64,000 bases of DNA from Uliginosibacterium gangwonense DSM 18521. Its GTDB lineage: Bacteria > Pseudomonadota > Gammaproteobacteria > Burkholderiales > Rhodocyclaceae. The stretch spans positions 197 through 64,196 of the forward strand of contig NZ_KB892839.1 in assembly GCF_000373965.1 (NCBI RefSeq), written 5' to 3'. The first letter of the stretch is position 1, and the number at the start of each line of letters is the position of its first letter. Of this stretch, positions 465 to 28,412 are shown one piece after another. The notes beneath the pieces were generated by a model, which made no database searches, was not told the DNA's origin, and saw nothing but the letters and a program-made list of their open reading frames with translations. A program made the translations under genes and the position numbers.

Positions 465-3607
<3,143 letters not shown>

Positions 3608-3615
3608 AGGCCGCC

Positions 3616-4770
3616 ATGAGTTTTATTCCCTATGGACACCAGTCCATTGACGACACCGACATTGCGGCGGTTGTTGAGGTTCTGCGCTCAGACTGGCTGA
3701 CCCAGGGGCCGAGTGTGTCGCGCTTTGAGCAGGCTGTTTGCCAATTTACGGGCGCCGCCCACGCGGTTGCGATGAGCAGTGCAACCGCAGCATTGCATCT
3801 GGCATGCTTGGCACTTGGCTTGGGGCAAGGGGGGCGATTGTGGACTGTACCCAACACATTTATCGCTTCTGCCAATTGTGGCCGCTACTGTGGAGCGAGC
3901 GTAGATTTTGTCGATATCGATGCGCGTAGCTATTGTATTGATGTCGAGGCGTTGGCGGGCAAACTTGAACAGGCTGCCCGCCTTGGTACTCTACCGGATG
4001 TATTGGTCGCGGTGGATTTTGCAGGCCAGCCTTGTGACTATGCAAAAATCATTGAGCTGAAACGGCGCTATGGCTTCAAAGTGATTGAGGACGCGTCACA
4101 CGCCATTGGCTCGGAGTATGAGGGGGTAAAAGTTGGCAGTCTGGCGGGGATTGATTGCACCATATTCAGTTTTCATCCCGTCAAACTGATTACCACTGCC
4201 GAGGGCGGCATGGCACTCACGCAGGACGCTGAACTTGCTCACCGCCTTGCTATGCTACGCTCCCACGGCATTGAGCGAGATCCGACGCGCCTGAACGATA
4301 CGAGCCAAGGCGCTTGGTACTATGAACAACAGGCGCTGGGCTTCAATTATCGCCTGACGGATGTACAAGCCGCCTTGGGCTCGGCCCAGATGCAGCGTTT
4401 GCCGGCATTTCTTGCCAAGCGTCATGCCTTGGTTGCGCGCTATGACGAGCTATTGGCGGAGTTGCCGTTGGTACTGCCCTGGCAAGCGCCACATACGCTA
4501 TCAGCCCGGCATCTTTACCCGATATTGCTGGCTGATGCAGCAATGCGTCGCCATGTATTCGACCAGATGCGTGCACACAATATTGGAGTGCAGGTTCACT
4601 ATATCCCGGTGCACCTGCAACCAGACTACAAACGCCTAGGATTTGGCGAAGGGGATTTTCCTGTTGCGGAAAACTATTATCAGCGGACTTTGTCTTTGCC
4701 ACTCTACGCTGATTTGAGCATCGCGCAGCAGGACGAAGTCATCGCACGCTTGAAGGAGTTTCTCGCATGA
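3616..4770 (+). CDS. pseC: UDP-4-amino-4,6-dideoxy-N-acetyl-L-altrosamine transaminase, PseC
   Basis: DegT/DnrJ/EryC1-type PLP aminotransferase of 384 residues. It aminates C4 of the PseB product using glutamate. The PLP lysine is Lys190 in SFHPVKLITTAEGG, so this is a true transaminase, unlike the His-containing relative at 18205. The N-terminus IPYGHQSIDDTDIAAVVEVL and the segment DWLTQGPSVSRFE are typical of PseC. GAGGCCGCC precedes the ATG at 3616. The stop overlaps the pseF start by four bases. Confidence 0.92.
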   Translation: MSFIPYGHQSIDDTDIAAVVEVLRSDWLTQGPSVSRFEQAVCQFTGAAHAVAMSSATAALHLACLALGLGQGGRLWTVPNTFIASANCGRYCGASVDFVDIDARSYCIDVEALAGKLEQAARLGTLPDVLVAVDFAGQPCDYAKIIELKRRYGFKVIEDASHAIGSEYEGVKVGSLAGIDCTIFSFHPVKLITTAEGGMALTQDAELAHRLAMLRSHGIERDPTRLNDTSQGAWYYEQQALGFNYRLTDVQAALGSAQMQRLPAFLAKRHALVARYDELLAELPLVLPWQAPHTLSARHLYPILLADAAMRRHVFDQMRAHNIGVQVHYIPVHLQPDYKRLGFGEGDFPVAENYYQRTLSLPLYADLSIAQQDEVIARLKEFLA

Positions 4771-5462
4771 GGCTCTGCATTATTCCTGCCCGGGGAGGCA
4801 GTAAGCGCATTCCACGCAAGAACATCCGGCCTTTTTGCGGCAAGCCCATGATTGCATGGTCAATCCAGGCTGCGCTGGCCAGTGGCTTGTTCGACCATGT
4901 GATTGTCTCGACCGAGGATGAGGAAATCGCGGCAGTTGCGCGTGAACACGGCGCTACCACGCCCTTTATGCGTCCTCCTGAGTTAGCCGATGATCATGCT
5001 GGCACGGGTGTGGTCGTCACCCACGGCATCCGCTGGTTTATGGAGCAAGGCCAACCGGTGGAACTCGTATGCTGTCTGTATGCCACAGCTCCCTTTGTGC
5101 AGGCGCAGGACTTGATTCAGGCGAATGCAGAGCGGGAAGCAAGCGATGCGGCTTTTGTATTTACCGCCACGAGTTTTGGTTTTCCCATTCTGCGTGCCGT
5201 GACATACAATTCGCAAGGAAAGCTTGGGCCTATGTTTCCCGAGCATATCGCCAAGCGCTCCCAGGACTTGCCAGAAGCATTTCATGATGCTGGGCAGTTC
5301 TACCTGGGGGATGCCAGATATTGGCTTGAAAATGTGCCGATGTTTGGTCCCCGGTCGCGCATCTATCTTCTGCCGCGTTACCGCGTGCAGGATATCGATA
5401 CGCCGGAGGATTGGACGCGTGCCGAATGGCTTTTCAGAGCCATGCAGGAAAGCCGCACATGA
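4767..5462 (+). CDS. pseF: Pseudaminic acid cytidylyltransferase, PseF
   Basis: A 231-residue CMP-sugar synthetase that activates pseudaminic acid with CTP to CMP-pseudaminic acid, the donor used by Maf. The nucleotide-binding signature ARGGSKRIPRKNI lies at about residues 8-20, followed by GKPMIAWSI. The C-terminal RVQDIDTPEDW block is typical of this family. PseF is the last enzyme of the pathway although its gene is third. It overlaps pseC and pseG by four bases at each end, which indicates translational coupling. Confidence 0.92.
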   Translation: MRLCIIPARGGSKRIPRKNIRPFCGKPMIAWSIQAALASGLFDHVIVSTEDEEIAAVAREHGATTPFMRPPELADDHAGTGVVVTHGIRWFMEQGQPVELVCCLYATAPFVQAQDLIQANAEREASDAAFVFTATSFGFPILRAVTYNSQGKLGPMFPEHIAKRSQDLPEAFHDAGQFYLGDARYWLENVPMFGPRSRIYLLPRYRVQDIDTPEDWTRAEWLFRAMQESRT

Positions 5463-6511
5463 GAGTCGCCTTTCGCGTTGATGCCTCGCGGGAAATCGGC
5501 TCTGGCCATGTAATGCGCTGCATTGCATTGGCACACGCTTTGGCAGAGCAGGGGGCGGAGATTGTGTTTCTCTGCCAGCAATTGCCAGGGAGCATGGAAC
5601 GCCAGATTCAGGAAGCAGGATTCGTATGCTGGCTGCTTACTTCTGTCCAGGATATTGAGGATGATGCGGACCAGACCAATCGTCTGCTGGATCAGTCACC
5701 GGGCTGGGATTGGCTGATTGTCGACCATTATGCCTTGAGCGTGCGTTGGAGTCGGATTTTGCGGGCCAGAATCGAAAAGCTGATGGCGATAGATGATCTG
5801 GCCAATCGCTTGCTTGGCTGCGATGTGTTGCTTGACCAGAATCTGAATGCTAATCCTGCAAAGCGTTATAAAGGCCTGGTGCCACCAGACGCCGTATGCC
5901 TGTTTGGCCCCGAGTTTGCACTGCTCAGACCCGAGTTTGCGAAGAGCCGGAATGCGTTGAGGCCACGCTCGGGAGAAGTTGCCCGGATATTTGTGTGCTT
6001 TGGCGGAGCAGATGCCCCAAATGCCACGGGGCGCGTGCTTGAAACCCTGCTGCCGGTTTTTCCCCATGTGTATTTCGATGTGGCATTGGGGGCTGCGAAT
6101 CCGCATTGTGAGTCTTTGCAGGCGCTATGCGCACAATATTCAAATGTGACTTTGTCATATGCAAAGATGGATGTTGCTACACGTATGTTGCAGGCCGATC
6201 TCTTTATTGGCTCCGGGGGTTCGATGACCTGGGAGCGCGCCGCACTTGCTTTACCCGGTATCACCTTGTCAATTGCAGATAATCAGCAAGCGCTGTCGCG
6301 TCTGCTCGCCAGGATGGGGGAGGGTAGAGACTTGGGGATGCTTGAGGATTTCAGCGCCGCCGCGCTTGTCGATACTTTGCGCGCCCTGATTGCTTCTCCG
6401 GCTACGGTCCGTGCGATGGGGCAAGCTCTTGCCAAACGTTGTGATGGACATGGTGCAGAGCGTGTCGCACAGATTCTGTTCGATCAGACCTTGATGTCTC
6501 TGTCGTCTTAG
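5459..6511 (+). CDS. pseG: UDP-2,4-diacetamido-2,4,6-trideoxy-L-altropyranose hydrolase, PseG
   Basis: GT-B-fold hydrolase of 350 residues that removes UDP from the diacetamido trideoxy sugar, giving the free sugar used by PseI. GSGHVMRC places the expected catalytic histidine at residue 17, matching Campylobacter PseG. The C-terminal half carries GSGGSMTWERAALALP, the UDP-binding loop of the family. The start at 5459 is chosen because it forms ATGA with the pseF stop and opens with MRVAFRVDAS; the frame is open further upstream inside pseF. This ends the plus-strand pse operon, and the 61 bases to 6573 separate it from a convergent gene. Confidence 0.92.
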   Translation: MRVAFRVDASREIGSGHVMRCIALAHALAEQGAEIVFLCQQLPGSMERQIQEAGFVCWLLTSVQDIEDDADQTNRLLDQSPGWDWLIVDHYALSVRWSRILRARIEKLMAIDDLANRLLGCDVLLDQNLNANPAKRYKGLVPPDAVCLFGPEFALLRPEFAKSRNALRPRSGEVARIFVCFGGADAPNATGRVLETLLPVFPHVYFDVALGAANPHCESLQALCAQYSNVTLSYAKMDVATRMLQADLFIGSGGSMTWERAALALPGITLSIADNQQALSRLLARMGEGRDLGMLEDFSAAALVDTLRALIASPATVRAMGQALAKRCDGHGAERVAQILFDQTLMSLSS

Positions 6512-6572: not shown

Positions 6573-7085
6573 TCACAGGATTGATCGTTCAAGTTGAACG
6601 ACTTCGAGCGCTTCCCCTCCTCGCTGGCGAGGGTAGCGCCCGCTTTCCTTGAAGCGGTAACGCAGATGCATGGAAAGCACCGCCGTATTGAAGGCAAAAA
6701 CCTCACAACATAAGGTGTTGCAGCCTAACTTATTTTTTGCGTAGTCAAGGGAGGCTTGCTCCATTCCATTCCAGGCTCGCAGGCGATCCATCCCGTCGGC
6801 AAAAGCGTCCGGGTTAAGGTAAAAGCCCCATAACCAGCAAGCTTCCCGATCCGCCATGCGGGAGAATGTCACAATACCGCATGCCAGCTCACCGTACTCG
6901 ATGATGAGCAGACGGTAATCTGGATTGTTCCGGGTATGCGGCCACCATGCAGCGTGTTCTTCCGGGCTGATGAGATGATCGGTGAACATCACCTTACGGA
7001 CTTCCGGGTGATTACGCCATGCCAGAACGGTGGCAGATTCTTCCTCGCGGGCAAGGCGCAAGCGTGTGAGTGTGGGGGTATTCAT
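6573..7085 (-). CDS. pseH: GNAT acetyltransferase, PseH-type
   Basis: A 170-residue GNAT protein with the N-terminal RLRLAREEESATVLAWRNHP block and the ISPEEHAAWW segment typical of PseH, which acetylates N4 of UDP-4-amino-4,6-dideoxy-beta-L-AltNAc. It supplies the one pathway step missing from the plus-strand pse operon. It is the last gene of the long minus-strand operon, and its start overlaps the LuxC-like gene by four bases. Function is inferred from family features and from the otherwise complete pse set; an acetyltransferase for another amino sugar in this cluster is possible. Confidence 0.75.
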   Translation of the reverse strand: MNTPTLTRLRLAREEESATVLAWRNHPEVRKVMFTDHLISPEEHAAWWPHTRNNPDYRLLIIEYGELACGIVTFSRMADREACWLWGFYLNPDAFADGMDRLRAWNGMEQASLDYAKNKLGCNTLCCEVFAFNTAVLSMHLRYRFKESGRYPRQRGGEALEVVQLERSIL

Positions 7086-8314
7086 TCGATCATAACCAGG
7101 CGGGAGAAGGCCAGAAGCAGATCGTGCCCGTCCCAGCGATCAGCAAACCTCAGCGCTTGGCCCAGCGGAACGATGCGGTCGACTGCGCGGTCCGGCAGCA
7201 TGAGTGCCCATCTGGTGAGAGCCTCGCGCTCAAAGCCCCAATAGGCCACGGTCTGATCGCAGGCTTCAAACAGGCTTATGCTGTTATCAAGTGACTCTCG
7301 TTGGATCTCGTAGATCAACCCATAGCCGCAATGTCCGTCGCGCATTGTAGCGTTGAATCGCTGTGCCGACAGGCGTAGCGGCCAGTCTGTGAGTGATCCT
7401 TCAAGTATCACGCCACCTTCCGTGGCAGCAAGGTGAGCGGCGACAAGTCTTGCTGCCAACTGGGTTGGTTCATCCTGCATGTTGCGCCGGGCGATCTCTT
7501 GCTTGACGGTAGGCCAGAAACGGGATTGCGCGGCTTGAACCTGTTCCGGTGTGCCTATCCAGAGCAAGGCGCGAGGTGAGGAGCAGGCTTGCTGGGCGAA
7601 CCAGAATGTATCGTTGTAAAACGCACCGGCCATTTGTGTGAGTGTTTCGGCGCTGGTTTGATTGACATTTTCCGCATGGATCAATGCCCATGATGCCCGA
7701 TTCGGGAAAACTAGTTCGGTGGCCAAGGGTGGTAATGGCAGGCTGCGCATATACTTGACGGTGGCATCTCCCCCCCAGACCACCCGTAGGTTGCAGCGTG
7801 CCGATAGTGCTGTGCTGATCTCATTGTCACGCTCATATGCCAACACTACATTGGCATTTGCAATGGCCGCATGTTCGGGGCGGGCCAGCAACTCGGTGAG
7901 TATTCCCAATAGCGCATCACGCTGTGGGTTTTCCCGCCGCGACAATCGCACGATATTGCGATTCCCGCATAGCAAAGACAGGAACCAGGAATAGACGAAA
8001 ACCGAATCGACGTTTGCAGGGGCAACATGAAAAGCCACTCCACGCGGGCGTAGCAGGCCCAGTTCTCCTAGGTGTTGAAAGCGTGCAAGAAGCGCCTGGA
8101 GTGCGGCGGGGCGAAACCAGTAAGCCAGCGCCATCAATTCCGGTGCCGCACGCATGGCTGGGTCACGCAATATGTGATCGGCAAACGCAGCCAAAAAGGC
8201 TTGGATTGACGCAGAAAAGGCTTGCAAAGGAGCATGCTGCAAGGCGTCTAACCGCTGCGTGATGGCCGCTTGTTCTGTGTTGCGCAAAGGGATAAGGAGT
8301 TCTATCGCGTGCAT
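7082..8314 (-). CDS. LuxC-like acyl-CoA/acyl-protein reductase
   Basis: About 410 residues of the acyl-CoA reductase family (LuxC), which reduces an activated acyl group to an aldehyde with NADPH. The signature is the cysteine in FAQQACSSPR near residue 244, in the position of the LuxC acyl-accepting cysteine. GVAFHVAPANVDSVFVYSW and GNRNIVRLS fit the aldehyde-dehydrogenase-like fold. The ATG at 8314 is used; a TTG at 8320 that overlaps the upstream stop is also possible. The partner LuxE-like gene is directly upstream. No luxAB is present, so light production is not implied; the product more likely feeds a sugar or lipid modification. Confidence 0.8.
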   Translation of the reverse strand: MHAIELLIPLRNTEQAAITQRLDALQHAPLQAFSASIQAFLAAFADHILRDPAMRAAPELMALAYWFRPAALQALLARFQHLGELGLLRPRGVAFHVAPANVDSVFVYSWFLSLLCGNRNIVRLSRRENPQRDALLGILTELLARPEHAAIANANVVLAYERDNEISTALSARCNLRVVWGGDATVKYMRSLPLPPLATELVFPNRASWALIHAENVNQTSAETLTQMAGAFYNDTFWFAQQACSSPRALLWIGTPEQVQAAQSRFWPTVKQEIARRNMQDEPTQLAARLVAAHLAATEGGVILEGSLTDWPLRLSAQRFNATMRDGHCGYGLIYEIQRESLDNSISLFEACDQTVAYWGFEREALTRWALMLPDRAVDRIVPLGQALRFADRWDGHDLLLAFSRLVMIE

Positions 8315-8316
8315 GT

Positions 8317-9402
8317 TCAAACCGCCCGTGTATCACTGCAGCCACGCAATTCCGCACGCGGCAGGCGTCCATCCACCCGCAAGGTGCGACCGAGTCGTCC
8401 GCATGGGCAATCATCTTCGCCAAGGATGGCTCCTATATCCTCGGTGAGCAGGCTGTGGCCAGGGTAGCTGCCGGGTAGCTCACTGAGAACCTGGATGATA
8501 CCGACTTGCCCTTGAGGAAGAGGGTGCAGGGTAAGCGGATCACGGACAATGGCTTCGGCATAAGCAGGCACGTGCAGGCGCCCATGCTCGCATTCCATGA
8601 AAATCGAGCCGACCTGTTCTGCCATGCCATAGTAGTCATGGACGAAATCAATGCCGAGTGCGGTGCGAATGGTTTGTTTGAAGTGCTCTTTGCTGATTTT
8701 ACGTTCCGCCAGCCGTTTCCATCCTCCACCATGAATCAAGCGGCTGCCCTTGGGAAATTGCAGGCTGCGGCCTTTTGCGGCAGCGACTTCCAGCAGGTAT
8801 TGCCAGACGACAAAGGTAAAGCCGAAAAGCAGTACCGGGCGAGCTGAATGCTGGGTAAGGAATGCTTCAATCTTCTCCCAATCAATCGACATATCTGGCC
8901 GTAACGCGTAGGTGTGTGCCCGCCCAAAGGTTGAGAAGCCAAGTACCGCAGCGCCTCTTGCGCCAAGTGCCATCTTGTTGTTGAGCAGATCGCTTTGGTC
9001 GATGATCAGCATCGGCATGCGCTCGCGGCCGATGAAATCCGTGACGATGTTTGCCAACGCACGGCTCTGGCGGGTTGCTGTGCCACGATCCAGAAAAATG
9101 CGTGAAGGTGTGCTGCCAGTGGTGCCGGAAGATCGCAACTCACGCACGATCTCTGCATCGGGTACGCTAGCCAGCTTGGCGCGTTTGAACAGCCCGACGG
9201 GAAGCCATGGCAGCGCATCCAGTGTGCGGGCTTCCTGCCAAGTTGGGTGTAATGTGTAAAGCATATTTGCATAAGGTGCACAGGCCTTCGCTTGCTCCTG
9301 GTTAAGCAACCGGAGTGCTGAAAACAGGCGTTGCGCTTTGGCTGCCTGGGGTTCGGCAAAGGGGGCTGTGAGGGTGGCGTCGTGGGCGTCCATATCTGCC
9401 AT
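8317..9402 (-). CDS. LuxE-like acyl-protein synthetase
   Basis: A 361-residue member of the LuxE acyl-protein synthetase family, an adenylating enzyme that activates a fatty acid and passes it to LuxC. The AMP-binding loop is LRSSGTTGSTPSR near residue 90. HDYYGMAEQVGSIFMECEHG near residue 260 matches the family's adenylate-binding block, and DCPCGRLGRTLRVDGR closes the protein. It sits six bases after the AMP-ligase gene and overlaps or abuts the LuxC-like gene. The pair resembles the fatty-acid reductase half of lux systems, here placed among sugar genes. The acyl substrate is unknown. Confidence 0.8.
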   Translation of the reverse strand: MADMDAHDATLTAPFAEPQAAKAQRLFSALRLLNQEQAKACAPYANMLYTLHPTWQEARTLDALPWLPVGLFKRAKLASVPDAEIVRELRSSGTTGSTPSRIFLDRGTATRQSRALANIVTDFIGRERMPMLIIDQSDLLNNKMALGARGAAVLGFSTFGRAHTYALRPDMSIDWEKIEAFLTQHSARPVLLFGFTFVVWQYLLEVAAAKGRSLQFPKGSRLIHGGGWKRLAERKISKEHFKQTIRTALGIDFVHDYYGMAEQVGSIFMECEHGRLHVPAYAEAIVRDPLTLHPLPQGQVGIIQVLSELPGSYPGHSLLTEDIGAILGEDDCPCGRLGRTLRVDGRLPRAELRGCSDTRAV

Positions 9403-9408
9403 TGTCGC

Positions 9409-10821
9409 TTAAACCTTGGTAAACAGCACACGCAGAGCCGCATAATCCTTTTTGCCGGTGCTTGTCTGTGGCAATACAGGCACAGTGCGAATCTGCAAGC
9501 CGCTGGGGTGGACGCTCAGGTGGGTGCGCAGCAATTCCATGGCAAGGTTCTGGGTCTGTATTTCGTCATTGCCAGCCGTCAGCACGACTTGCAGGCGATC
9601 ATCTCCATCCAGGGTCGCGGCCGGGCTGTGCAGAGTAGATTCAAGTAGGGCCTCGATCTCGTCAAGATTCACGCGGTTGCCGAATACCTTGGCGATACGC
9701 TTGCTACGCCCGGTGAGCCAGTAAATACCATCGGCATCAACTCTGGCTAGATCGCCTGTGCGCAGCACACCGCCCAGATCATCCCCGCGCATAAGATCGG
9801 CGCGGTTTTCCGCGTACCCTAACATCACATTTGGGCCACGGTAGATCATCTCCCCCTCTGCACTCAATGAGAGTTCTCCGCCGGGAATGGCGATGCCGAT
9901 TGCGCCGATTTTGTCTTGCAGGCGTTCCCAAGGTACGTAAGCGATTCTCGGGCTGGCTTCGGTCTGGCCGTACATCACAAAGAAACGCCAACCGCGCTCG
10001 GTACTTATTTGCGAAAAGTGTGCAATCAACTCTGGCGCCAACCGCCCTCCGGCTTGGGTCAGCGTGCGCAAACTTGGCAGGTCCATGCGTTCCAGGCGCA
10101 AGCGTTGCAGCATCTGCCACATCATCGGCACACCTGCCAGCGAAGTTACTTCCGCGCGCTTGAATAGCTCCCAAAACTGGCGGGCGGTGACGGCCTCATC
10201 GGTCAGAGCAATGGCCGCGCCACATGCCAGATGGCTGTTGAGAATCGACAAACCGTAGGAGTAGTGGATTGGCAAACTGGCAATGGCCCGCTCTGTCGCA
10301 TTGAGCCCAAGGTACTGTACGATGGACTGCGCATTGGCAGCGATGTTGGTATAAGAGAGCCTGACCATCTTCGGGTTGCCGGTGGTTCCTGAAGTGGAAA
10401 GCAACACGGCAGTATCCGGGAAGATTGCCAGACGCTTCTCAGAAACAGAGTTTTGTCGGATCAGGATGCTTTTGCCATGCCAGGGCAGGCGGGTGTAGCC
10501 TTGGATTTCTGCTTGGGGGTCTGTATGCAGCAGCCAATCAGGCGTATAACGCTCAATCAGCGTCGCCAGTGCTTGGGTAGAAAGGCGATCTGGGAGCAGG
10601 GCTACGCAGTCGTGGTTACGCAGTGCGCCCAGATAGGCTGTAACCGATGCTACATCGTTGCGGCAGAGTACAAAACCCAGACGTTTGTAGGATGCAATGG
10701 GCAAGGAGGCAATAAACTCGTCGGCACGGGTAGCGAGTGCGTGATAGTTCAGATTGTCTGCGGGCTCTGCACAGATCAGAGCCAGGGCGTTTCCAGGCGA
10801 ATCTAATTGCCAGAATTTCAT
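9409..10821 (-). CDS. AMP-dependent acyl ligase (ANL superfamily)
   Basis: A 470-residue adenylate-forming ligase. The phosphate loop LLSTSGTTGNPKMVRLS lies near residues 138-154, YGQTEASPRIAYVPWE is the A5-type motif, and RTGDLARVDADGIYWLTGR is the hinge motif. The C-terminal catalytic lysine is kept at about residue 457 in QTSTGKKDY. It probably activates a carboxylic acid and loads it onto the acyl carrier protein encoded at 26929 or onto CoA. It starts within the stop of the upstream SDR gene (ATGA overlap). The specific acid cannot be predicted here. Confidence 0.8.
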   Translation of the reverse strand: MKFWQLDSPGNALALICAEPADNLNYHALATRADEFIASLPIASYKRLGFVLCRNDVASVTAYLGALRNHDCVALLPDRLSTQALATLIERYTPDWLLHTDPQAEIQGYTRLPWHGKSILIRQNSVSEKRLAIFPDTAVLLSTSGTTGNPKMVRLSYTNIAANAQSIVQYLGLNATERAIASLPIHYSYGLSILNSHLACGAAIALTDEAVTARQFWELFKRAEVTSLAGVPMMWQMLQRLRLERMDLPSLRTLTQAGGRLAPELIAHFSQISTERGWRFFVMYGQTEASPRIAYVPWERLQDKIGAIGIAIPGGELSLSAEGEMIYRGPNVMLGYAENRADLMRGDDLGGVLRTGDLARVDADGIYWLTGRSKRIAKVFGNRVNLDEIEALLESTLHSPAATLDGDDRLQVVLTAGNDEIQTQNLAMELLRTHLSVHPSGLQIRTVPVLPQTSTGKKDYAALRVLFTKV

Positions 10822-11588
10822 AGTACCATTCCGCCATCTATGCCAATGACTTGACCCGTGATGTAGCGCGAGGCATCGCTTGCGAGAAAGGCGATTACCT
10901 CTGCTACTTCTTCGGGGGTGCCCGCACGCCCCATGCCAATGTTGGCGATGATGCGTTCGCGCTGTTCCGGTTTGTAGGCAGCGGTCAATGCAGTATCAAT
11001 GAAGCCTGGCGCCACCGCGTTGACCCGAATGCCTTTTGGAGCGAGTTCCTTGGCTGCGGATTTTGTCGCGCCGATCACAGCGGATTTGCTTGCGGCATAA
11101 AGCACCTGATTGGCGCTGCCTGTGATCCCCACAATTGAAGCTATGTTGATGATGCAACCAGCGCCTTGTCGTGTCATCAAACGTGCAGCGTACTGCATGT
11201 GGTTAAGTGTCGCTGTCAAGTTGATCTGCAAGCTCTGCTGGATAGTGGCACTACCTATCATGCCCAGTGGTGCGTCAATCATGATGCCTGCGGCATTGAT
11301 GAGCACATCCAGGCGTTTGTATTGTCGGGCAAAATCCTGCAAGGCTGCGCTGCTTGCCTTGTCGTCTTGCAGATCGTAAATGAGTGTGCCCAGCGCTGGT
11401 ATGTTGTGTGCGGCAAGCGTGGCTTGCAAGTGCGCCAGTGCGTCGCCATTCCGGCCTGCTAGCACCAACTGTGCGCCCCGCGTTGCCAAAATATGGGCGA
11501 TGGCTGCACCCAGACCGCCGGTTGCGCCTGTCAGCAAGACGATGCGGCCATCAAGATTAAGCGAAAGGGGGAGTAGACCTTGGGTCAT
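10818..11588 (-). CDS. FabG-like short-chain dehydrogenase/reductase
   Basis: A 256-residue classical SDR. The NAD(P)-binding motif [12 protein letters not shown] is near residue 19, NAAG near 98, the active-site serine is in [10 protein letters not shown], and the Tyr-Lys pair is in VLYAASK. The C-terminal [16 protein letters not shown] is typical of 3-oxoacyl-ACP reductases. With the neighbouring ligase, LuxE- and LuxC-like proteins and ACP, it may reduce a beta-keto intermediate on a carrier. A sugar ketone is an alternative substrate. It overlaps both neighbours by four bases. Confidence 0.82.
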
Positions 11589-12157
11589 TTCGTCAATGCC
11601 AAATTGGCCTGGAGATAGTCCAGCGCATCGTGCAGATGTGTAATTATCGCAGTTGCGTTGGCGGGGAGGCTAGAACAATCGCCAGACGGTGCATAGATGA
11701 GGCGCGTGCCGACCCCGGCGCGAAGAGCCGCTTCCGTGTCACTTTCGTTGTCACCAATGAGGATAGAGCAAGCCAGATCAATATTGAATTGATGCTGTGC
11801 TTTCAAAATCATACCAGGGTTGGGCTTGCGGTCGGGCGAGTCGACGCGATAGTCGCCCAGGCCATGTTCCGGGTGACTGGGGCAATAGTAAACTTCTGCC
11901 AGCGGGGTGCCGTGTGAGGTGAATTGATCCTTCATCCATGCCGTCAGTGCAAGGAATTGCTCTTCGCTGTAGTAACCCCGTCCGATACCTGCCTGATTGG
12001 TGACAACAATGAGCAGATAATCATGCTTGGTCGCTTGTTGGCAAAGCGCGAAGATCCCCTCCATGAACTCGAATTGATCTGGCCGATGGACATAGGCAAA
12101 GTCATGATTGATGACGCCATCACGATCCAGAAAAAGGGCTTTCTGCTTGGGCTTCAT
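11585..12157 (-). CDS. gmhB: Heptose-bisphosphate phosphatase, GmhB-like HAD protein
   Basis: A 190-residue HAD phosphatase with [10 protein letters not shown] at the start, [13 protein letters not shown], and [15 protein letters not shown]. Together with HddA and HddC next to it, it fits removal of the 7-phosphate from heptose-1,7-bisphosphate. The zinc site of E. coli GmhB (C-x-H, then C-x-C) is incomplete here: CPSHPEHG keeps a Cys and a His, but the later cysteine pair before RKPNPG is absent ([11 protein letters not shown]). A histidinol-phosphatase-like role is less likely given the context. It overlaps hddC and the SDR gene by four bases each. Confidence 0.8.
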
Positions 12158-12885
12158 GATGCAGAAGAGAAAAAATCTGCACCGGCAGCATAGGATTCAG
12201 GCGTGCCGATGTCGATAAATGGTTTGTCTTGCAGAAATACGCCAAGCTTGGCGCCCACGTAGCGGGGAAAGATTTCGCGCTCAAGTGAAATTGCACACTC
12301 TGTTGGTATGGATGCAAGCATTTCACGCTGCATCAGGTAGAGTCCGGCATTGATCCATGCTGGGCCGTTTCGTTGTGCAGATTTCTCGTGAAAAGCCAGA
12401 ATGTGCTGTTGTGCGTCATCAAGTTCGAGTGCGCCAAATCGACTGGCATCATTAACGTGTACGGCACACAAGGTGATCGGGCAAGCCATCGCTCGGTGAG
12501 CAGAAACAAAACCAGCCAGATCAGCATCCACAAAGGAGTCGCCATTCAGGATCAGAACCGGATTGCTTGTTGTGTGTGATAATGCCAATCGAATTGCCCC
12601 GCCTGTGCCCAGGGGCGTAGGTTCAATGGATTCGATCAGATCCATGCCGAATTCGGTGCGCCAGCGTTCGATCCAGGGGTGTGCGGATTCTGCCATGTGG
12701 CCGAGTGCGAAAATCACACGCCGAATTCCCGCGCGCTGCAATTGGATGAGCAGACGGGCCACGAAGGGTTGCTCACCCACGCTGGCGAAGGCCTTTTGCC
12801 TGTCTGCCACCACGCTACGTAGCCGCGTACCCAGCCCACCTGCCAGGATGATGGCATCTAGGCGGCTTAATTCAGGCGTGTTCAT
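12154..12885 (-). CDS. hddC: D-glycero-D-manno-heptose 1-phosphate guanylyltransferase, HddC-like
   Basis: A 244-residue sugar nucleotidyltransferase opening with [16 protein letters not shown], followed by a QKAF segment where related enzymes have PKP. Next to HddA and a GmhB-like phosphatase it most likely makes GDP-D-glycero-alpha-D-manno-heptose. The start at 12885 (or ATG 12888) puts the nucleotide-binding loop near residue 10, normal for the family. The frame is open to 13155, but that stretch lies inside hddA and is rejected. The start overlaps hddA by 14 bases. Confidence 0.8.
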
Positions 12886-13876
12886 CATCAAATGGAGCGT
12901 AGTAGACGATCTGGCTGCCTTGTGTGTCAAACCTGAACGGTACAACAAGTAAGTGAGAAAGTGCTTCACGGATGGCTGCATGGGTTTCCTGAGGCGCGAT
13001 GAAGAGCATAAAGCCACCGCCGCCTGCGCCGAGCAGTTTGCCGCCGTGTGCGCCCGCACGCATGCCGGTTTCGTAGATCTGGTCGATAGTTTGCGTGCTG
13101 ATGAGAGATGACATGCTCTTTTTGAGTTTCCATTGCTCATCAAGCAGACGACCAATTTCGGAAACGGGTGTTTGTGGGTTGATCAGGATATTGACTGCTG
13201 CATCGACCAGTTCGCCCATGCGGGAGAGTTCATGCGCCTTCTTGGGCGTGGCGCGGATCTGCTCGACAGCAATTTCAGATGCTTGGCGTTGCAAGCCGGT
13301 AAAGAACAAAAGCAAATTCTGCTGCAACTCTTCCAGGCGCGAAGCGGATAGGATCACTGGCTCGACCGAGAATTCCTGCATGCCGCCGAAGTGGATGAGG
13401 TTCAGGCCGCCAAATGCGGCAGCAGTTTGGTCTTGCGAGCCGACCTGTTCCTTGAGGATATCTTGCTCAATACGGATCGCGTTAATCGCCAGCTCACGTT
13501 TGGTCGGCATCCGGTGAGTGAGTGCATATAATGCGTGAAGCATGCCGACGGTAAAAGACGAGCTTGTTCCCAACCCTGACATAGCGGGCAGATCGCCGTG
13601 GTGCACGATGTCGATGCCACGTTCCACGCCCATGTGGCGCAGGCATTCACGGATCGAGGGATGCTTGATGTCGTCCAGGCAGTTCACCTCTTCGCGGTTG
13701 TAATAGCGAATACGATATTTGTAGTCAAAAAACGGTGGCAGGTAGCGCAGGGTGATGAAACTGTACTTGTTGATGGAGGTACTTAATACCTTGCCGCCAT
13801 GCTCACGATACCACACCGGGTAGTCTGTTCCACCTCCAAAGAGGGAGATGCGTAGCGGAGTTCGGCAAATGATCAT
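12872..13876 (-). CDS. hddA: D-glycero-D-manno-heptose 7-phosphate kinase, HddA
   Basis: A GHMP-superfamily kinase of 334 residues that phosphorylates C1 of heptose-7-phosphate. The N-terminus IICRTPLRISLFGGGTDYP, the ATP loop MSGLGTSSSFTVG near residue 100 and the C-terminal GKLLGAGGGGFMLF are diagnostic. The isomerase GmhA that feeds it is not in this window and is presumably shared with LPS core synthesis elsewhere. It follows the transketolase genes by 15 bases in the same operon. Confidence 0.87.
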   Translation of the reverse strand: MIICRTPLRISLFGGGTDYPVWYREHGGKVLSTSINKYSFITLRYLPPFFDYKYRIRYYNREEVNCLDDIKHPSIRECLRHMGVERGIDIVHHGDLPAMSGLGTSSSFTVGMLHALYALTHRMPTKRELAINAIRIEQDILKEQVGSQDQTAAAFGGLNLIHFGGMQEFSVEPVILSASRLEELQQNLLLFFTGLQRQASEIAVEQIRATPKKAHELSRMGELVDAAVNILINPQTPVSEIGRLLDEQWKLKKSMSSLISTQTIDQIYETGMRAGAHGGKLLGAGGGGFMLFIAPQETHAAIREALSHLLVVPFRFDTQGSQIVYYAPFDDEHA

Positions 13877-13891
13877 GACTATGTTCCGTGC

Positions 13892-14821
13892 TTAGAAATT
13901 GCCTAATATGGTGTCAAGAATGTGCTGGCGGCCCAGACCACAGGCTTCATGGATGGCGTCACGGCTGCCGATTTCAAATGAATAATGTGGTCGGGCGGCA
14001 ATGACTTCAAGCCGCTGTGTGTGTCCCAATCCGCTTAGCAGAGTTTGGGCGCCTGCGCTGACCAGTGCTTCTTGGATGAGAAAAATGCGTTTGCAGTTAC
14101 CCAATACGGATTGAAGTGCCTGCCCGTCTGCGCTGTTGTAAGCGACCAGATCAATCAGTGTGGGGCTCAGGCCGCGAATGGCGAGTTCTGGCAGAAGGCT
14201 GTGTGCCACATGGGTCATATAGCCGGTGCACACCAGTGCGACCTCTTTACCAGATTGAAGAACGCGAAAACCAGCCGTTAATGTCTCCACGCTATCATTA
14301 TCCGCTACGGGTAGATGGGGTTTGGCATCAAAACGCAGGTATTTGACCCCGGGCTTGTTCAAGCAATGGTCTGCAAGCAATGGGGCCTGGGTATGATCGC
14401 TGGGTGAATAGACGGCCACATTTGGTAGTGTGGACATGATGGTAAGATCTTCAATGCAATGATGAGTCGGGCCGGATACGTCGTAGCTGAACCCCGCACC
14501 CACCCCGACCAGGGTGACGTTCATGGGCCGCAGTTGCGAGAGAATGGCCAGATTCACGCGGATCTGCTCGAAGCAGCGCATGGTAATGAATGGGGCGATA
14601 GCATAGGCTACAACCCGGTAACCTTCCAATGCAAAGCCGGTGGCGAGGTTGATGAGGTTCTGCTCGGCAATTCCGGTGTTGAAGAAACGGTCAGGAAATT
14701 CAGTTCTGATCTCGTCGATGACAGGCGCACCAAAGTCGGCAGAGAGAAGTACTATGTCATCATCTTCCCGCATCTTTTGCAGCAGGCGGGTGAGGAAGGT
14801 GTCACGCATGGTTGACTTCAT
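13892..14821 (-). CDS. Transketolase-like protein, pyrimidine-binding and C-terminal part
   Basis: A 309-residue protein matching the second half of transketolase/DXS-type ThDP enzymes. The catalytic glutamate that activates ThDP is Glu53 in GIAEQN. VGVGAGFSYDVSGPTHHCIEDL is the central substrate loop and YSPSDHTQA begins the linker to the C-terminal domain. It pairs with the preceding gene (14818-15672), which carries the diphosphate-binding half, and the two overlap by four bases. Such split transketolases transfer a two-carbon ketol unit or an acyl unit. Its position beside a ColD-like gene suggests it acts on a nucleotide sugar or an aldehyde rather than in central metabolism. Confidence 0.85.
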   Translation of the reverse strand: MKSTMRDTFLTRLLQKMREDDDIVLLSADFGAPVIDEIRTEFPDRFFNTGIAEQNLINLATGFALEGYRVVAYAIAPFITMRCFEQIRVNLAILSQLRPMNVTLVGVGAGFSYDVSGPTHHCIEDLTIMSTLPNVAVYSPSDHTQAPLLADHCLNKPGVKYLRFDAKPHLPVADNDSVETLTAGFRVLQSGKEVALVCTGYMTHVAHSLLPELAIRGLSPTLIDLVAYNSADGQALQSVLGNCKRIFLIQEALVSAGAQTLLSGLGHTQRLEVIAARPHYSFEIGSRDAIHEACGLGRQHILDTILGNF

Positions 14822-15672
14822 GCCGCACCTCCATTACTGAGCAATGTGTCAATCTCGGATGAGGGGACACCCATGACATGGGCAAGCGGGCTGCTTTCCA
14901 ACGATGGCACGCCTTTACCCTTGAGTGTGTGGGCAATCAGAACCTTGGGTTTGGCACTGCTTGAAGTCAGCAGGGTTTCAAAACCTGCCTGCAATTGTGC
15001 GATATCGTGGCCGTCACGAACAACGTAGGGTTCCCAGCCGAAAGCCTCGAATTTGGTTTCCAGTGGATTGAGGTCGAGAATATCCTTGGTGTAGCCAAGC
15101 ATCGAGCGACCGTTGCAATCAACCATTGCGATCAACTTGTCCAGTTTATGATGCCCGGCGAACATGGCCGCTTCCCATACGGCCCCTTCGTTGAGTTCTC
15201 CGTCTCCGAGTAGTACAAAGGCGCGTTGCGGTTTGCGTGCGGTACGTAACGCTAAGGAAATGCCTGTGGCAACACCGAGACCGTGCCCGAGTGAGCCGTT
15301 GATGGTTTCGTAGCCAGGGATAATCGGGTCTGGAATGCCGCCGAGAAAACTGCCTGGTTTGCAGACTGTATCCAAGGCTGCGATCGGGAAAAAACCGAGG
15401 TCGGCCAGAATCGGATAGAGGCAGATCGAGCCGTGCCCTTTGCTGATGATGATGCGATCACGTTCAGGGTGTAGGGGAGACTGCGGGAAGCATTGGGCGA
15501 TTTCGCCATAATAGAGCGTGGTGAGCAACTCAATCACCGAGAGCGAAGATGCCACGCGGGTTTCTGGCGCGTGTCGGTGTATCTTGAGTGTTTGCTCGCG
15601 TACCCAGCAGGATTTTTCCGCAAGCCATGCCGTGCGGGCCTGTGGGGTTGGGGGCAAGGAAGATGTGCTCAT
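14818..15672 (-). CDS. Transketolase-like protein, ThDP diphosphate-binding part
   Basis: A 284-residue protein equal to the N-terminal third of transketolase. The ThDP/Mg motif starts GDGELNEGAVWEAAMF at residue 156 and ends at the asparagine near residue 187 (MVDCN). SKGHGSICLYPILADLG and NGSLGHGLGVATGISLA are further family blocks. It needs the following gene for a complete active site. A housekeeping transketolase is normally a single chain of about 660 residues, so this split pair is a specialised version. It lies 17 bases downstream of a radical SAM gene. Confidence 0.87.
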   Translation of the reverse strand: MSTSSLPPTPQARTAWLAEKSCWVREQTLKIHRHAPETRVASSLSVIELLTTLYYGEIAQCFPQSPLHPERDRIIISKGHGSICLYPILADLGFFPIAALDTVCKPGSFLGGIPDPIIPGYETINGSLGHGLGVATGISLALRTARKPQRAFVLLGDGELNEGAVWEAAMFAGHHKLDKLIAMVDCNGRSMLGYTKDILDLNPLETKFEAFGWEPYVVRDGHDIAQLQAGFETLLTSSSAKPKVLIAHTLKGKGVPSLESSPLAHVMGVPSSEIDTLLSNGGAA

Positions 15673-15689
15673 GAATAGCGTTTCTTTCG

Positions 15690-17180
15690 TTAAGCCGGGG
15701 CCGTCGTTTCAAGTAACTTGCGCGGCAGCTTGATGGCAAGCACTTCATTCAGATGATCCACCACATTCTGACCAAATTTGCTACGCACCATGTCTTGGTA
15801 ACGTGGCGATTCAAAATAGGTATTGAAGGCATTGTCACGGAAAGCGAGGATTTCCGCTGCACTCAAGTTCGCGTTTGCCAGTGGCAGGGTATCCCAGGCA
15901 TGTTGCGAATAGGCGCCCCAATGTTCGGGTAGGGCGATGCCTTGTTGCTGGGCGTAGGTGTAGAGTTGCGACCCAGGGTAGGCCATGGCTGAATAAAAGT
16001 TGGCGAATTCACAATTGAGTTCCTGCGCCAGATCAAGCGTGGCTTGCATGGAAGCGTGGGTGTCATCCGGCAGGCCGAAGATGTAGTTTCCCATCACGCG
16101 GATGTCATTGGCCTGGATTTTCTGGACAATTTCCGTGATATCTTCAGTGCTGAAAGATTTCTCTGCGCCGTCACGGACGTGTTCGCTGCCACTTTCGATT
16201 CCAAGGCACAACCAGTTGAACCCAGCCGCCCGGAGCTTGGCAAGCATATCATCCTTGACGGTGTCGACACGCGCATAGGCCCAGATGTTCAGGTTGTGAC
16301 CGCGTGCGATGAGCAGGTCGCAGATGTCCAGCACATGACGCCGGTTGAGTACAAACATCTCGTCGACGAACTTGATGTTTTTCACTCCATGGCGTTCGAC
16401 AAGATAATCGATCTCACGCACGACCGATTCTGCACTCCACATGCGATAGGCATTCTTGCCGTAAGGGGCGTTGATGCAACAGAAATTGCATTTGAATGGG
16501 CAGCCCAGGCTGGTATGGATCGAGGCGTAAGGTGAGCGCTCTTCAATATGGTCGAAGCAGTGCCAGTTGTGCGCGCGGTAACGGCTCATGTCAAGCAGAT
16601 CCCAGGCGATGCCAGGCATTTCGCCATCCAGATCGGTAATCAGCGGTTCGGTTGATTGTGGCGCCATGATGAGTGTGCCACGCCTCCACCACAGCGATGG
16701 AATAGCGCTGAAATCCGTCGTGCCTGCGTCTAGTGCATCAAGCGTTTTGAGGATGGTAGCGGGGCCTTCCAGGCTGCAGACAAAGTCTGTCTTTTCTTCT
16801 CGCATGGTGCGGTCGGGCAGAGCGGCAGGATGGGTGCCGGTCATCATGATCGGCACATCGCTGCATTCCTTGATCAGTCGAGCAATCTTTCCCGCCGAAG
16901 GCATGTTCTGCGTGGATGCCGAAGGCTGGAGGCCGTATACCACGAGTACCACAAGCTTTGGAGCGTACGCGGAAAGCATTTCCTCAACAGCCTTCTCTGC
17001 GCTCAGGCGTGTTGCGGGCACATCCAGAATTGCGACTCGTTTGCCCTTGCGTTGCAGATAGGTGGCAAACAACCCTGCGAATACCGGCGGCTCAATGGCT
17101 GCAATGGTAGCCCCCAATGCCTGATAGGTGCCGCGATGGTCACCGGGATTGATCAGCAGTACATCTAGTTTTTCGGCCAC
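15690..17180 (-). CDS. B12-binding-domain radical SAM protein
   Basis: A 496-residue protein with an N-terminal cobalamin-binding-like Rossmann domain (VLLINPGDHRGTYQALGA at the start, LVVLVVYGL near residue 75). The radical SAM core has the cluster motif CPFKCNFC near residue 230. The classic DxHxxG cobalamin loop is not seen, as is common in this class. Family members catalyse methylations, ring rearrangements or other C-H chemistry; the reaction here cannot be named. It lies between the epimerase and the split transketolase, so a sugar or acyl intermediate is a plausible substrate. Confidence 0.82.
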   Translation of the reverse strand: MAEKLDVLLINPGDHRGTYQALGATIAAIEPPVFAGLFATYLQRKGKRVAILDVPATRLSAEKAVEEMLSAYAPKLVVLVVYGLQPSASTQNMPSAGKIARLIKECSDVPIMMTGTHPAALPDRTMREEKTDFVCSLEGPATILKTLDALDAGTTDFSAIPSLWWRRGTLIMAPQSTEPLITDLDGEMPGIAWDLLDMSRYRAHNWHCFDHIEERSPYASIHTSLGCPFKCNFCCINAPYGKNAYRMWSAESVVREIDYLVERHGVKNIKFVDEMFVLNRRHVLDICDLLIARGHNLNIWAYARVDTVKDDMLAKLRAAGFNWLCLGIESGSEHVRDGAEKSFSTEDITEIVQKIQANDIRVMGNYIFGLPDDTHASMQATLDLAQELNCEFANFYSAMAYPGSQLYTYAQQQGIALPEHWGAYSQHAWDTLPLANANLSAAEILAFRDNAFNTYFESPRYQDMVRSKFGQNVVDHLNEVLAIKLPRKLLETTAPA

Positions 17181-17204
17181 ATCAGGCTCCTTGCCCGGCC
17201 ACGA

Positions 17205-18137: not shown

Positions 18138-18204
18138 GGCGTTTCCTTTGTTTATGTTGTTTCCGCTCGGGGGAGTGTGTCACTTCCGAGTGGCTTATGG
18201 TGCT

Positions 18205-19374: not shown

Positions 19375-19387
19375 ATCAATACCTCTG

Positions 19388-20365: not shown

Positions 20366-20395
20366 GAGTGGCCTCCAAATACTGATGCAAGCCCC

Positions 20396-26928: not shown

Positions 26929-27171
26929 TCAGAGGACGACACCATATTTGGCCAATATCTCGCACGCCTTGCCAACGCTGGACATGTCGATCACGTCTTC
27001 GGTATCCATCATGATGTCGAAGGCTGACTCAATGGCGGCAATCAGCGCCATGTGGGCTACCGAGTCCCATTCCGGGATGCTGGCGTAGCGCAGATCGTCA
27101 GTCACGCGGCCAATATCAATGGCAAGCGATTCGGCAAATACTTGGCACAGTTTCTCTTTGTTTTGACTCAT
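26929..27171 (-). CDS. Acyl carrier protein
   Basis: An 80-residue acidic carrier protein. The phosphopantetheine attachment serine is Ser37 in EWDSVAHMAL, matching the usual DSL/DSV motif. It is the first gene of the minus-strand operon and lies 84 bases from a sigma-28-like promoter. It is not the housekeeping AcpP, which would sit among fab genes. The likely partners are the AMP ligase, FabG-like SDR, LuxE and LuxC homologues at the far end of the same operon. Specialised ACPs also occur in the flagellin modification loci of Campylobacter and Pseudomonas. Confidence 0.88.
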   Translation of the reverse strand: MSQNKEKLCQVFAESLAIDIGRVTDDLRYASIPEWDSVAHMALIAAIESAFDIMMDTEDVIDMSSVGKACEILAKYGVVL

Positions 27172-27282: not shown

Positions 27283-27365
27283 GGTGTTTTGGCGACATGG
27301 TTTCCAGCCCCCAGCCTGCTAGACTATTGGTGAGCCAAAGTGTTGGCGTCTTTTGCGAGGGCAGC

Positions 27366-28412
27366 ATGGTGCAGATTGGAGACCGTTTCGTTGGGCGCGA
27401 GCACGCGCCGTTTGTGATTGCGGAGATGAGTGGCAATCACAACGGCTCCTTGGAGCGCGCGCTGGAGATCGTAGATGCGATTGCGGCTACCGGGGCGCAT
27501 GCACTCAAGCTGCAAACCTATACGGCTGACACGATGACGCTTGACTGCGATCACCCGGATTTTGTGATTGGCGAGGCTGACAGCTTATGGCATGGCCGCA
27601 AGCTCTACGATCTATACGATGAAGCACATACTCCATGGGATTGGCACAGACCAATTTTTGAACGTGCGAAAAGCCACGGCATGCTGGCCTTCTCCACCCC
27701 GTTTGACGATACCGCCGTGGATTTCCTGGATGAACTCGGGGTACCGTGTTTCAAGATCGCCAGCTTCGAGAATGCCGATCTGCCCTTGATCCGCAAGGCG
27801 GCCTCCAAGGGCAAGCCCTTGATCATCTCCACCGGAATGGCCACGTTGGCTGCGATGGGTGAGGCGGTGGAGGTGGCTCGTAGTGCCGGGGCGGCGGATG
27901 TGATTCTGCTCAAATGTACCAGCACCTATCCTGCTTCACCGGCGGATAGCCATCTGCTCACCATCCCGCATATGCGTGAAGCGTTTGGCTGCGAGGTGGG
28001 GATCTCTGATCACACTCTGGGGATTGGCGCGGCAATCGCAGCGGTGTCCTTGGGTGGAACGGTGATTGAGAAGCATGTGACCCTGCAGCGTGCTGATGGA
28101 GGCGTCGACAGTGCTTTTTCGCTGGAACCGCCAGAACTCAAGATGCTGGTGGAAGAGAGCGAGCGTGCCCGCCAGTCCTTGGGTCGGGTGCATTATGGGC
28201 CAAGCAACAAGGAGAAGGCCGCGCTCAAATACCGCCGTTCCTTGTATGTGGTGGCGGACATCAAGGCGGGGGAGCAATTCTCCGCGCAGAATGTGCGGGC
28301 GATCCGCCCTGGCTTCGGGCTGGCGCCCAAGCACTACGACGCGGTGATCGGGCGCCGCGCCGCACGGGATATTGCGCGTGGCACCGCCCTGAGCTGGGAT
28401 CTGCTGGCCTGA
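27366..28412 (+). CDS. pseI: Pseudaminic acid synthase, PseI
   Basis: A 348-residue NeuB-family enzyme that condenses 2,4-diacetamido-2,4,6-trideoxy-L-altrose with phosphoenolpyruvate to give pseudaminic acid. Family blocks include FVIAEMSGNHNGSLERA at the N-terminus, HALKLQTYTADTMTL, FKIASFE, LIISTGMA and the C-terminal SAF-type antifreeze-like domain (about residues 285-348). The ATG at 27366 is chosen for GAGGG seven bases upstream; the frame is open to 27297. The gene is divergent from the ACP operon and separated from the other pse genes by about 21 kb. Confidence 0.93.
   Translation: MVQIGDRFVGREHAPFVIAEMSGNHNGSLERALEIVDAIAATGAHALKLQTYTADTMTLDCDHPDFVIGEADSLWHGRKLYDLYDEAHTPWDWHRPIFERAKSHGMLAFSTPFDDTAVDFLDELGVPCFKIASFENADLPLIRKAASKGKPLIISTGMATLAAMGEAVEVARSAGAADVILLKCTSTYPASPADSHLLTIPHMREAFGCEVGISDHTLGIGAAIAAVSLGGTVIEKHVTLQRADGGVDSAFSLEPPELKMLVEESERARQSLGRVHYGPSNKEKAALKYRRSLYVVADIKAGEQFSAQNVRAIRPGFGLAPKHYDAVIGRRAARDIARGTALSWDLLA

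Follow-up and report, generated by a model that had tools for sequence, protein, structure and literature searches.

In Vibrio cholerae O1, 3-deoxy-L-glycero-tetronate N-acylates the perosamine of the O-antigen. The available part of the V. cholerae annotation lists RfbL (VC0249), an iron-containing alcohol dehydrogenase (VC0250), the acyl protein synthase/acyl-CoA reductase RfbN (VC0251), and an acetyltransferase (VC0252) (PMC9201469). RfbL has been assigned 2,4-dihydroxybutanoic acid, together with the carrier RfbK (PMC12208996), and an excerpted Vibrio vulnificus list gives a 4-amino-6-deoxyhexosamine acetyltransferase, an acyl carrier protein (ACP), and RfbN under neighboring gene numbers (PMC11264103). 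A gene set comprising LuxE, LuxC, FadD/CaiC, FabG, and Acp is also known from the flagellin islands of Enterobacteriaceae and Dickeya zeae (PMC4875605, PMC7575072), as are orf1-3, luxE, and luxC downstream of pseH in Aeromonas Group II (PMC7874193); the accessible portions of these papers treat it as fatty-acid synthesis or liposugar machinery. The set is frequent in flagellin islands and other sugar loci, and "liposugar" is a vague account of it. Here we analyzed a 64,000-nucleotide stretch of Uliginosibacterium gangwonense DSM 18521 (contig NZ_KB892839.1, positions 197 to 64,196; hereafter the window) that carries a LuxC-like reductase, a LuxE-like synthetase, an AMP-forming ligase, a FabG-like short-chain dehydrogenase/reductase (SDR), and an ACP, together termed the cassette. 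Our data moderately favor an interpretation in which the cassette is an acyl-donor system for amino-sugar N-acylation, supplying a hydroxyacyl-ACP to PseH and, through it, pseudaminic acid (Pse) on flagellin. No statement of this interpretation was found in the accessible portions of the literature searched; the status of the cassette across phyla, its kinship to RfbKLMN-type operons, the altered PseH loop, and a fitting glycan mass are new here. The genes concerned are the following.

354-2564, Maf-type protein, on the plus-strand flank beside PseB, PseC, PseF, and PseG
2561..6511, plus strand, PseB, PseC, PseF, and PseG of the pseudaminic acid pathway, around the PseH step (above equivalog cut-offs)
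6573..7085, minus strand, PseH-type GNAT, the proposed user of acyl-ACP (TIGR03585, 97.3 against a cut-off of 93.1)
7082..8320, minus strand, LuxC-like acyl-thioester reductase with nucleophile C246 (PF05893, 76 bits, cut-off 21)
8317..9402, minus strand, LuxE-like acyl-protein synthetase, with C355 of 361 residues as the proposed acyl carrier (PF04443, 182 bits)
9409..10821, minus strand, AMP-forming acid ligase with K457 (PF00501, 138 bits)
10818..11588, minus strand, FabG-like SDR, a proposed aldehyde/keto reductase (PF13561, 195 bits)
26929..27171, minus strand, ACP with Ser37 in WDS(V)AHM (PF00550, 23.8 bits, cut-off 20.8)
27297..28412, plus strand, pseudaminic acid synthase PseI, divergent from the ACP gene (TIGR03586, 499 against 340)

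From ACP to PseH, 19 minus-strand genes follow one another without interruption (gaps of -47 to +70 bp), with the ACP gene at the 5' end and 4-bp overlaps at LuxE/LuxC and LuxC/PseH. The Pfam matches and this continuous strand confirmed the operon of five gene types, with the ACP at its far end, that had been proposed by a first-pass annotation of the sequence. The flagellin glycosylation setting given there was also borne out: the run is flanked on the plus strand by the Maf-type gene with PseB, PseC, PseF, and PseG on one side and by PseI on the other, and these five Pse proteins exceed their curated cut-offs by at least 98 bits, PseH doing so barely. The 5.02-Mb genome contains a single LuxC match. 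The window shares with Aeromonas Group II islands all five gene types, in the same order and beside pseH, whereas the ACP gene is adjacent there; the available text of that study mentions no transketolase, and its authors read the set as fatty-acid synthesis (PMC7874193).

The catalytic motifs of the cassette are preserved in the window, namely C246 (QQACSS) in LuxC, SSGTTG and C355 in LuxE, TSGTTG and K457 in the ligase, YxxxK in the SDR, and DSV in the ACP. In alignments that excluded rows under a length limit, C246 and C355 were invariant (98/98 and 95/95 rows), S151, Y164, and K168 of the SDR were found in 83 of 83 rows, and K457, the catalytic lysine expected by the first-pass annotation, was present in 91 of 92; the WDS(V)AHM motif was kept across a 75-row alignment of cassette ACPs. 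The window LuxE aligns to a solved LuxE (7xc6_E) through the C-terminal GCS. Judging from these residues, LuxE and LuxC appear equipped for the activation of an acid and its reduction to an aldehyde, as had been suggested. A phosphopantetheinyl transferase gene adjoins the cassette in locus L098, and members of the same family do so in L041 and L123, which would fit an ACP that functions as a carrier. The reported lack of luxAB held as well: the luciferase model PF00296 matched none of the 19 operon proteins, and the lux equivalog models were not reached (LuxC, 24.8 against 750; LuxE, 70.9 against 550).

To place the cassette in a wider context, 103 loci were read, 19 and 80 from genomes and 4 from plasmid records, all found through LuxC; the 80 collection loci are the best 80 of 128 relatives, and the whole set includes at least two repeated genomes (L022/L045 and L026/L064) and several short contigs. 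The same-strand order ACP-SDR-ligase-LuxE-LuxC recurred in 59 of the 103 loci, or in 64 when five with an extra ligase in front are included, and this recurrence upholds the earlier assignment of the ACP to the same system. LuxE was located near LuxC on the same strand in 98 of 103. Such recurrence exceeds chance and indicates genes that act together. Host taxa comprised Pseudomonadota, Bacillota, Actinomycetota, Acidobacteria, Bacteroidetes, Ignavibacteria, Chloroflexi, Omnitrophota, and a Deinococcus plasmid, among others. At E-values up to 1e-10, LuxC relatives occurred in 6 of 150 family genomes and 15 of 398 phylum genomes, the window's own genome being counted in both. The closest relatives, such as Niveibacterium (L045; LuxC 59% identical), keep the SDR-ligase-LuxE-LuxC-PseH block with heptose-type genes upstream. 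A LuxC match was present in 15 plasmid records, four of which were read, and the viral contigs yielded no relative. Several Bacteroidetes and Ignavibacteria loci (L084, L085, L088, L103, L105, L109, L118, and L121) have several extra AMP ligases and/or c22-family GNATs, hinting at a different, multi-acyl product.

The nearest kin of the cassette were found in sugar operons rather than in bioluminescence operons. A LuxC search of 394 genomes from one order in the window's class gave 67 with a match, including 825-aa LuxE-LuxC fusions. In loci L183 and L184 from this class, an ACP, a 473-aa AMP ligase, and a 374-aa iron-containing alcohol dehydrogenase (PF00465) precede such a fusion, a layout matching that of V. 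cholerae rfbK-L-M-N-O, where, in the annotation available, the ACP, AMP ligase, dehydrogenase, and LuxE and LuxC parts are followed by an acyltransferase. No acyltransferase was recognized in L183 or L184. Cassette profiles scored 55-57 bits for the ACP, 158-163 for the ligase, 310-313 for LuxE, and 129-132 for LuxC in L183/L184. The same profiles gave just 101 bits (LuxE) and 71 bits (LuxC) with a true lux operon, L189, in which both luciferase subunits were verified; luxCDABE and the window have in common the LuxC and LuxE families with their catalytic cysteines, but the luciferase has no counterpart in the window operon. A LuxE tree joined the two RfbN-type rows and a cassette-like fusion (L187) to the 26 cassette rows in a group of 29 (98/97), and bioluminescent LuxE lay outside it on a very long branch of unsure place. 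By these comparisons, the LuxE and LuxC of the cassette are far nearer to the RfbN type than to bioluminescence proteins.

As a relative of the RfbKLMN type, the cassette is a variant and no plain member. Its ACP, ligase, LuxE, and LuxC are homologous to those of L183/L184 (55-313 bits), whereas an iron-containing alcohol dehydrogenase was absent among the 19 window proteins, the SDR occupying that place; LuxE and LuxC are separate instead of fused; and the acyltransferase is the GNAT PseH with flagellin Pse as the proposed target, as opposed to O-antigen perosamine in V. cholerae. On sequence grounds, the cassette probably works like an RfbKLMN-type hydroxyacyl-ACP pathway. The best model for the L183 alcohol dehydrogenase was bifunctional acetaldehyde/alcohol dehydrogenase (195 bits), with lactaldehyde reductase (152) and 4-hydroxybutyrate dehydrogenase (126) among those that came next; none of them reached its cut-off. 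One contig (L187:2524-13916) has both a cassette in which LuxE and LuxC are separate and, some 6 kb beyond it, a cassette-type 773-aa LuxE-LuxC fusion. Another lux-like set (L185:8007-12843 and L186:987-5808) consists of a LuxE-like protein, then a LuxC that carries a fused AMP-binding domain (811 aa in L185), and a Pfam-negative protein of 419 aa.

GNATs grip the CoA pyrophosphate through a Gly-x-Gly/Ala loop, which the Campylobacter jejuni PseH (4xpk) shows in our alignment. Both glycines of G-x-G were present in 15 of 18 PseH proteins from cassette-free Pse loci, as against none of 34 different cassette-linked PseH-type GNATs; the window PseH reads A-D-G-M-D-R-L at this site and does not have the CoA loop. 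The cassette-free group consisted of 18 of the 25 PseH-like matches in L196-L230, with L202, L206, L211, L212, L217, L222, and L224 excluded for having no Pse genes in the stretch or no callable open reading frame (ORF); L206 does have the loop, and loci L232-L253 stood outside the test. In addition to its passing curated score, the window PseH gave a confident AlphaFold model (pLDDT 92.9), whose first match by E-value was the Helicobacter pylori PseH 4ri1. An acyl-ACP donor, which lacks the nucleotide part of CoA, would relax the PseH loop. A GNAT gene lies no more than 3 kb away in 24 of the 27 loci that contain PseI or PseG, and some non-Pse loci have a PglD-type hexapeptide protein (one representative scanned) or another GNAT near the cassette.

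A further candidate acyltransferase, the c30 family, was noticed beside the cassette in five loci (L068:11158-11937, L058, L072, L076, and L102) of Mitsuaria, Paenibacillus, Stenotrophomonas, Luteimonas, and Magnetomicrobium. Two members scanned were Pfam-negative, and an AlphaFold model (mean pLDDT 85) placed the family closest, in Foldseek, to the TDP-fucosamine acetyltransferase WecD, which makes it a putative WecD-like protein. By eye, the loop region lacks Gly-x-Gly/Ala in three of four aligned members, L102 having Gly-x-Ala.

The flagellin glycan of Aeromonas piscicola AH-3 offers a mass against which the acyl group can be compared. According to the available text, the five cassette genes lie downstream of pseH in its island, the linking sugar is a putative Pse derivative of 376.14 Da that is retained in a mutant without the glycosyltransferase Fgi-1, and the glycan also holds an unassigned 102-Da moiety (PMC7874193). 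Pse5Ac7Ac with one acetyl swapped for C4H7O3 (dihydroxybutanoyl) computes to 376.148. A C4H6O3 acyl unit computes to 102.032, and subtraction of the other units (Pse = 376.148) from the published 1491.5 leaves 102.04.

In the favored mechanism, LuxE would convert a carboxylic acid to acyl-AMP and then to a thioester on its C-terminal cysteine, and LuxC would take the acyl group on C246 and reduce it to an aldehyde. The aldehyde is probably an intermediate that the SDR reduces to an alcohol, yielding a short hydroxy-acid, so that the SDR would be the counterpart of the iron alcohol dehydrogenase in the RfbN-type set. The AMP ligase would load the hydroxy-acid onto the dedicated ACP, and PseH would use this acyl-ACP to acylate the 4-amino group of the pseudaminic acid precursor, which would otherwise receive acetyl, so that flagellin Pse would bear a hydroxyacyl group on N7. 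A C4 dihydroxybutanoyl (3-deoxytetronyl) group, possibly derived from malate, would be the likeliest; the simplest pairing of acids is malate with 2,4-dihydroxybutanoate, although 3,4-dihydroxy- or other short hydroxy-acids are possible. We infer the order of these steps, reduction of the aldehyde by the SDR, the use of acyl-ACP as donor by PseH, and the identity of the acid; the scheme would assign one job to each of the five proteins and PseH. The solved relatives of the ligase span oxalyl- and malonyl- to long-chain ligases and are so varied that they do not fix the acid. An amino-acid substrate appears unlikely on inspection of the sequence, as the A-domain aspartate that would bind the amino group is not evident.

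If this donor pathway is correct, the chemistry of many flagellins and surface sugars would be predictable from gene content, and the GNAT family would include a switch of donor from CoA to ACP. More tentatively, the cassette could be one system spread across phyla, in which sugar N-acyltransferases (PseH, and likewise WecD- and PglD-types) have exchanged acetyl-CoA for acyl-ACP made by a lux-like reductase cassette and deoxytetronyl is placed on nonulosonic acids. The donor switch and the deoxytetronyl group would then account for the 376- and 102-Da moieties of Aeromonas flagellin, giving two unassigned masses of a published glycan a candidate identity.

Several observations weigh against the hydroxyacyl-ACP interpretation or limit its evidence. 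FabG-like sequences usually reduce 3-oxoacyl-ACP, and two adenylating enzymes for a single acid exceed what is strictly needed. In 11 of the 103 loci, ligase, LuxE, and LuxC stand without a same-strand SDR nearby, in at least three because the contig begins inside the cassette, and no iron-containing alcohol dehydrogenase was found among the scanned neighbors of the SDR-less L029, L033, L081, and L102; an SDR-like ORF also lies upstream of the ACP in L183. The bootstrap of the LuxE tree had not converged, and the rows outside the cassette group have very long branches. In the loop comparison, five of the 34 cassette-linked GNATs pass when alanine counts at the second aligned position and four pass under a loose pattern, the loose contrast giving a Fisher p of 5e-7 with related sequences treated as independent. 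In favor of the interpretation, 53 of 86 loci (L022, L040, and loci with less than 3 kb of flank left out) carry an N-acyltransferase-type ORF no more than 3 kb away (c30 not counted), at a density of 0.114/kb near the cassette and 0.010/kb further out, but this 11-fold ratio is biased upward because the profiles were built from families noticed near cassettes, and Pse loci are compact anyway. The profile search recognized no N-acyltransferase within 3 kb in the remaining 33 loci, among which L058, L068, L076, and L102 hold c30 and a Maf gene puts PseH past the limit in L033. Aminotransferase genes occur in 51 of the 86 loci and show no enrichment close to the cassette (0.048/kb, against 0.040/kb further out), and the second amino-sugar route of the window, marked by a DegT aminotransferase (18205-19374), could be the acceptor. 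As for the masses, other formulae fall within 0.02 of 376.14 and O-methylglyceroyl has the identical formula, 1491.5 is too coarse to exclude C5H10O2, and the AH-3 values belong to another organism, where the available text calls the Pse identity putative. No biochemistry of the cassette was found in the accessible portions of the literature searched.

With regard to the SDR-less cassettes, replacement of the SDR by another alcohol dehydrogenase was looked for among the neighbors of L029, L033, L081, and L102 and rejected, the iron-containing enzyme being seen solely in RfbN-type operons. These neighbors include a FabA-like protein with a GMC oxidoreductase (L029), LicD (L033), and a polysaccharide deacetylase (L081).

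An alternative, unlikely in our view, is that the cassette is fatty-acid or liposugar machinery, in which a long-chain aldehyde from LuxE-LuxC, or a fatty acyl on the ACP, decorates the flagellin glycan. Bioluminescence LuxE and LuxC act on tetradecanoyl groups. Fatty-acid or liposugar machinery has been proposed in print, in the portions available, for Enterobacteriaceae (PMC4875605) and Aeromonas (PMC7874193). However, cassette LuxE and LuxC are nearer the RfbN type than lux, no ketosynthase domain was matched among the 19 operon proteins, as a fatty-acid synthesis module would have, and a C12 or C14 acyl group on Pse computes to 456 or 484 Da, not 376. Because the nearest relatives are RfbN-type sugar proteins and the next gene, which overlaps luxC, encodes an amino-sugar N-acyltransferase (PseH), a short hydroxyacyl is likelier than the long-chain or alkyl product that the first-pass annotation had envisaged.

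The SDR might instead be a true 3-oxoacyl-ACP reductase, with the ligase loading acetoacetate or a like acid, the SDR making 3-hydroxyacyl-ACP for PseH, and LuxE-LuxC forming a side step. The best scores of the SDR are indeed to FabG models (TIGR01830, 232 bits, under the model cut-off of 298), and 3-hydroxybutyryl is a common N-acyl group of bacterial amino sugars. This scheme has a low probability: a side role is hard to reconcile with LuxE beside LuxC in 98 of the 103 LuxC-found loci, the string in L183/L184 that runs from ACP through ligase and dehydrogenase to LuxEC includes an iron alcohol dehydrogenase but no FabG, and 3-hydroxybutyryl-Pse computes to 360.15, not 376.14.

It is also rather improbable that the cassette acylates the other amino sugar of the locus, from the DegT/heptose branch (15690-20365), in place of Pse. 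The DegT aminotransferase is encoded on the same strand, and many other loci pair the cassette with DegT and have no Pse genes, some with a PglD- or WecD-type acyltransferase; against this, no second acyltransferase was recognized among the 19 genes, and it is PseH that overlaps luxC and has the altered loop. The branch belongs to a GDP-heptose-like sub-cluster (11585-22147) containing HddA, HddC, GmhB, a split transketolase, two epimerases, DegT, and two B12-binding radical SAM enzymes, with the following features.

11585..12157, minus strand, GmhB-type phosphatase, of the heptose sub-cluster rather than the cassette (TIGR00213, 166 bits)
12154..13155, minus strand, HddC-like nucleotidyltransferase of the heptose sub-cluster (NF049965, 135 bits, under the cut-off of 300); start candidates place the true start probably near 12885
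12872..13876, minus strand, HddA-like GHMP kinase of the heptose sub-cluster (NF049969, 147 bits, under the cut-off of 600)
13892..14821, minus strand, transketolase C-terminal subunit, heptose-linked (PF02779/PF02780)
14818..15672, minus strand, transketolase N-terminal subunit (TktN), heptose-linked (PF00456; tree)
18205-19374, same strand as the cassette, DegT aminotransferase of the second amino-sugar route

The first-pass annotation had suggested that the LuxC aldehyde is the acceptor of this split transketolase, producing a chain joined to a sugar; despite six other loci with a split transketolase in or near the cassette and an analogous arrangement in D. zeae, this is very improbable for the window, because its transketolase falls outside the clade of those loci and joins a heptose locus in which no LuxC or LuxE was matched, and because three heptose-type genes separate it from the cassette. 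The window TktN, together with four rows from its close relatives, joined L145 at 100/100 in the tree, a locus with HddA-, HddC-, rSAM1-, epimerase-, and transketolase-like genes and no LuxC/LuxE match in the stretch read. L150 and L153 likewise contain overlapping heptose-type sets with no LuxC/LuxE match in the stretches read, and three heptose-linked genomes without the cassette (G678, G765, and G787) are absent from the seven LuxC matches in a 274-genome sample, of which they are presumed members. In L142 the transketolase lies about 7 kb away from the cassette and falls together with that of the lux-free L151.

The separate TktN clade (99/99) consists of split transketolases in or near the cassettes of L025, L029, L030, L035, L044, and L066, where a reaction of the aldehyde with the transketolase is a real possibility. 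In the accessible text for D. zeae, tktA/tktB sit within the cassette in the arrangement seen in L030, a likeness of gene order (PMC7575072); unlike that of the window, the L030 transketolase belongs to the cassette clade. The transketolase idea may thus apply to L030, with its Dickeya-like order, and to the Rhizobium type rather than to the window. The cassette-clade transketolases of L029 and L044 are accompanied by a FabA/FabZ-type dehydratase and a GMC oxidoreductase. Beyond PseI in the window, on the opposite strand, a TPR protein (28416-29870) has a weak C-terminal match to glycosyltransferase family 9.

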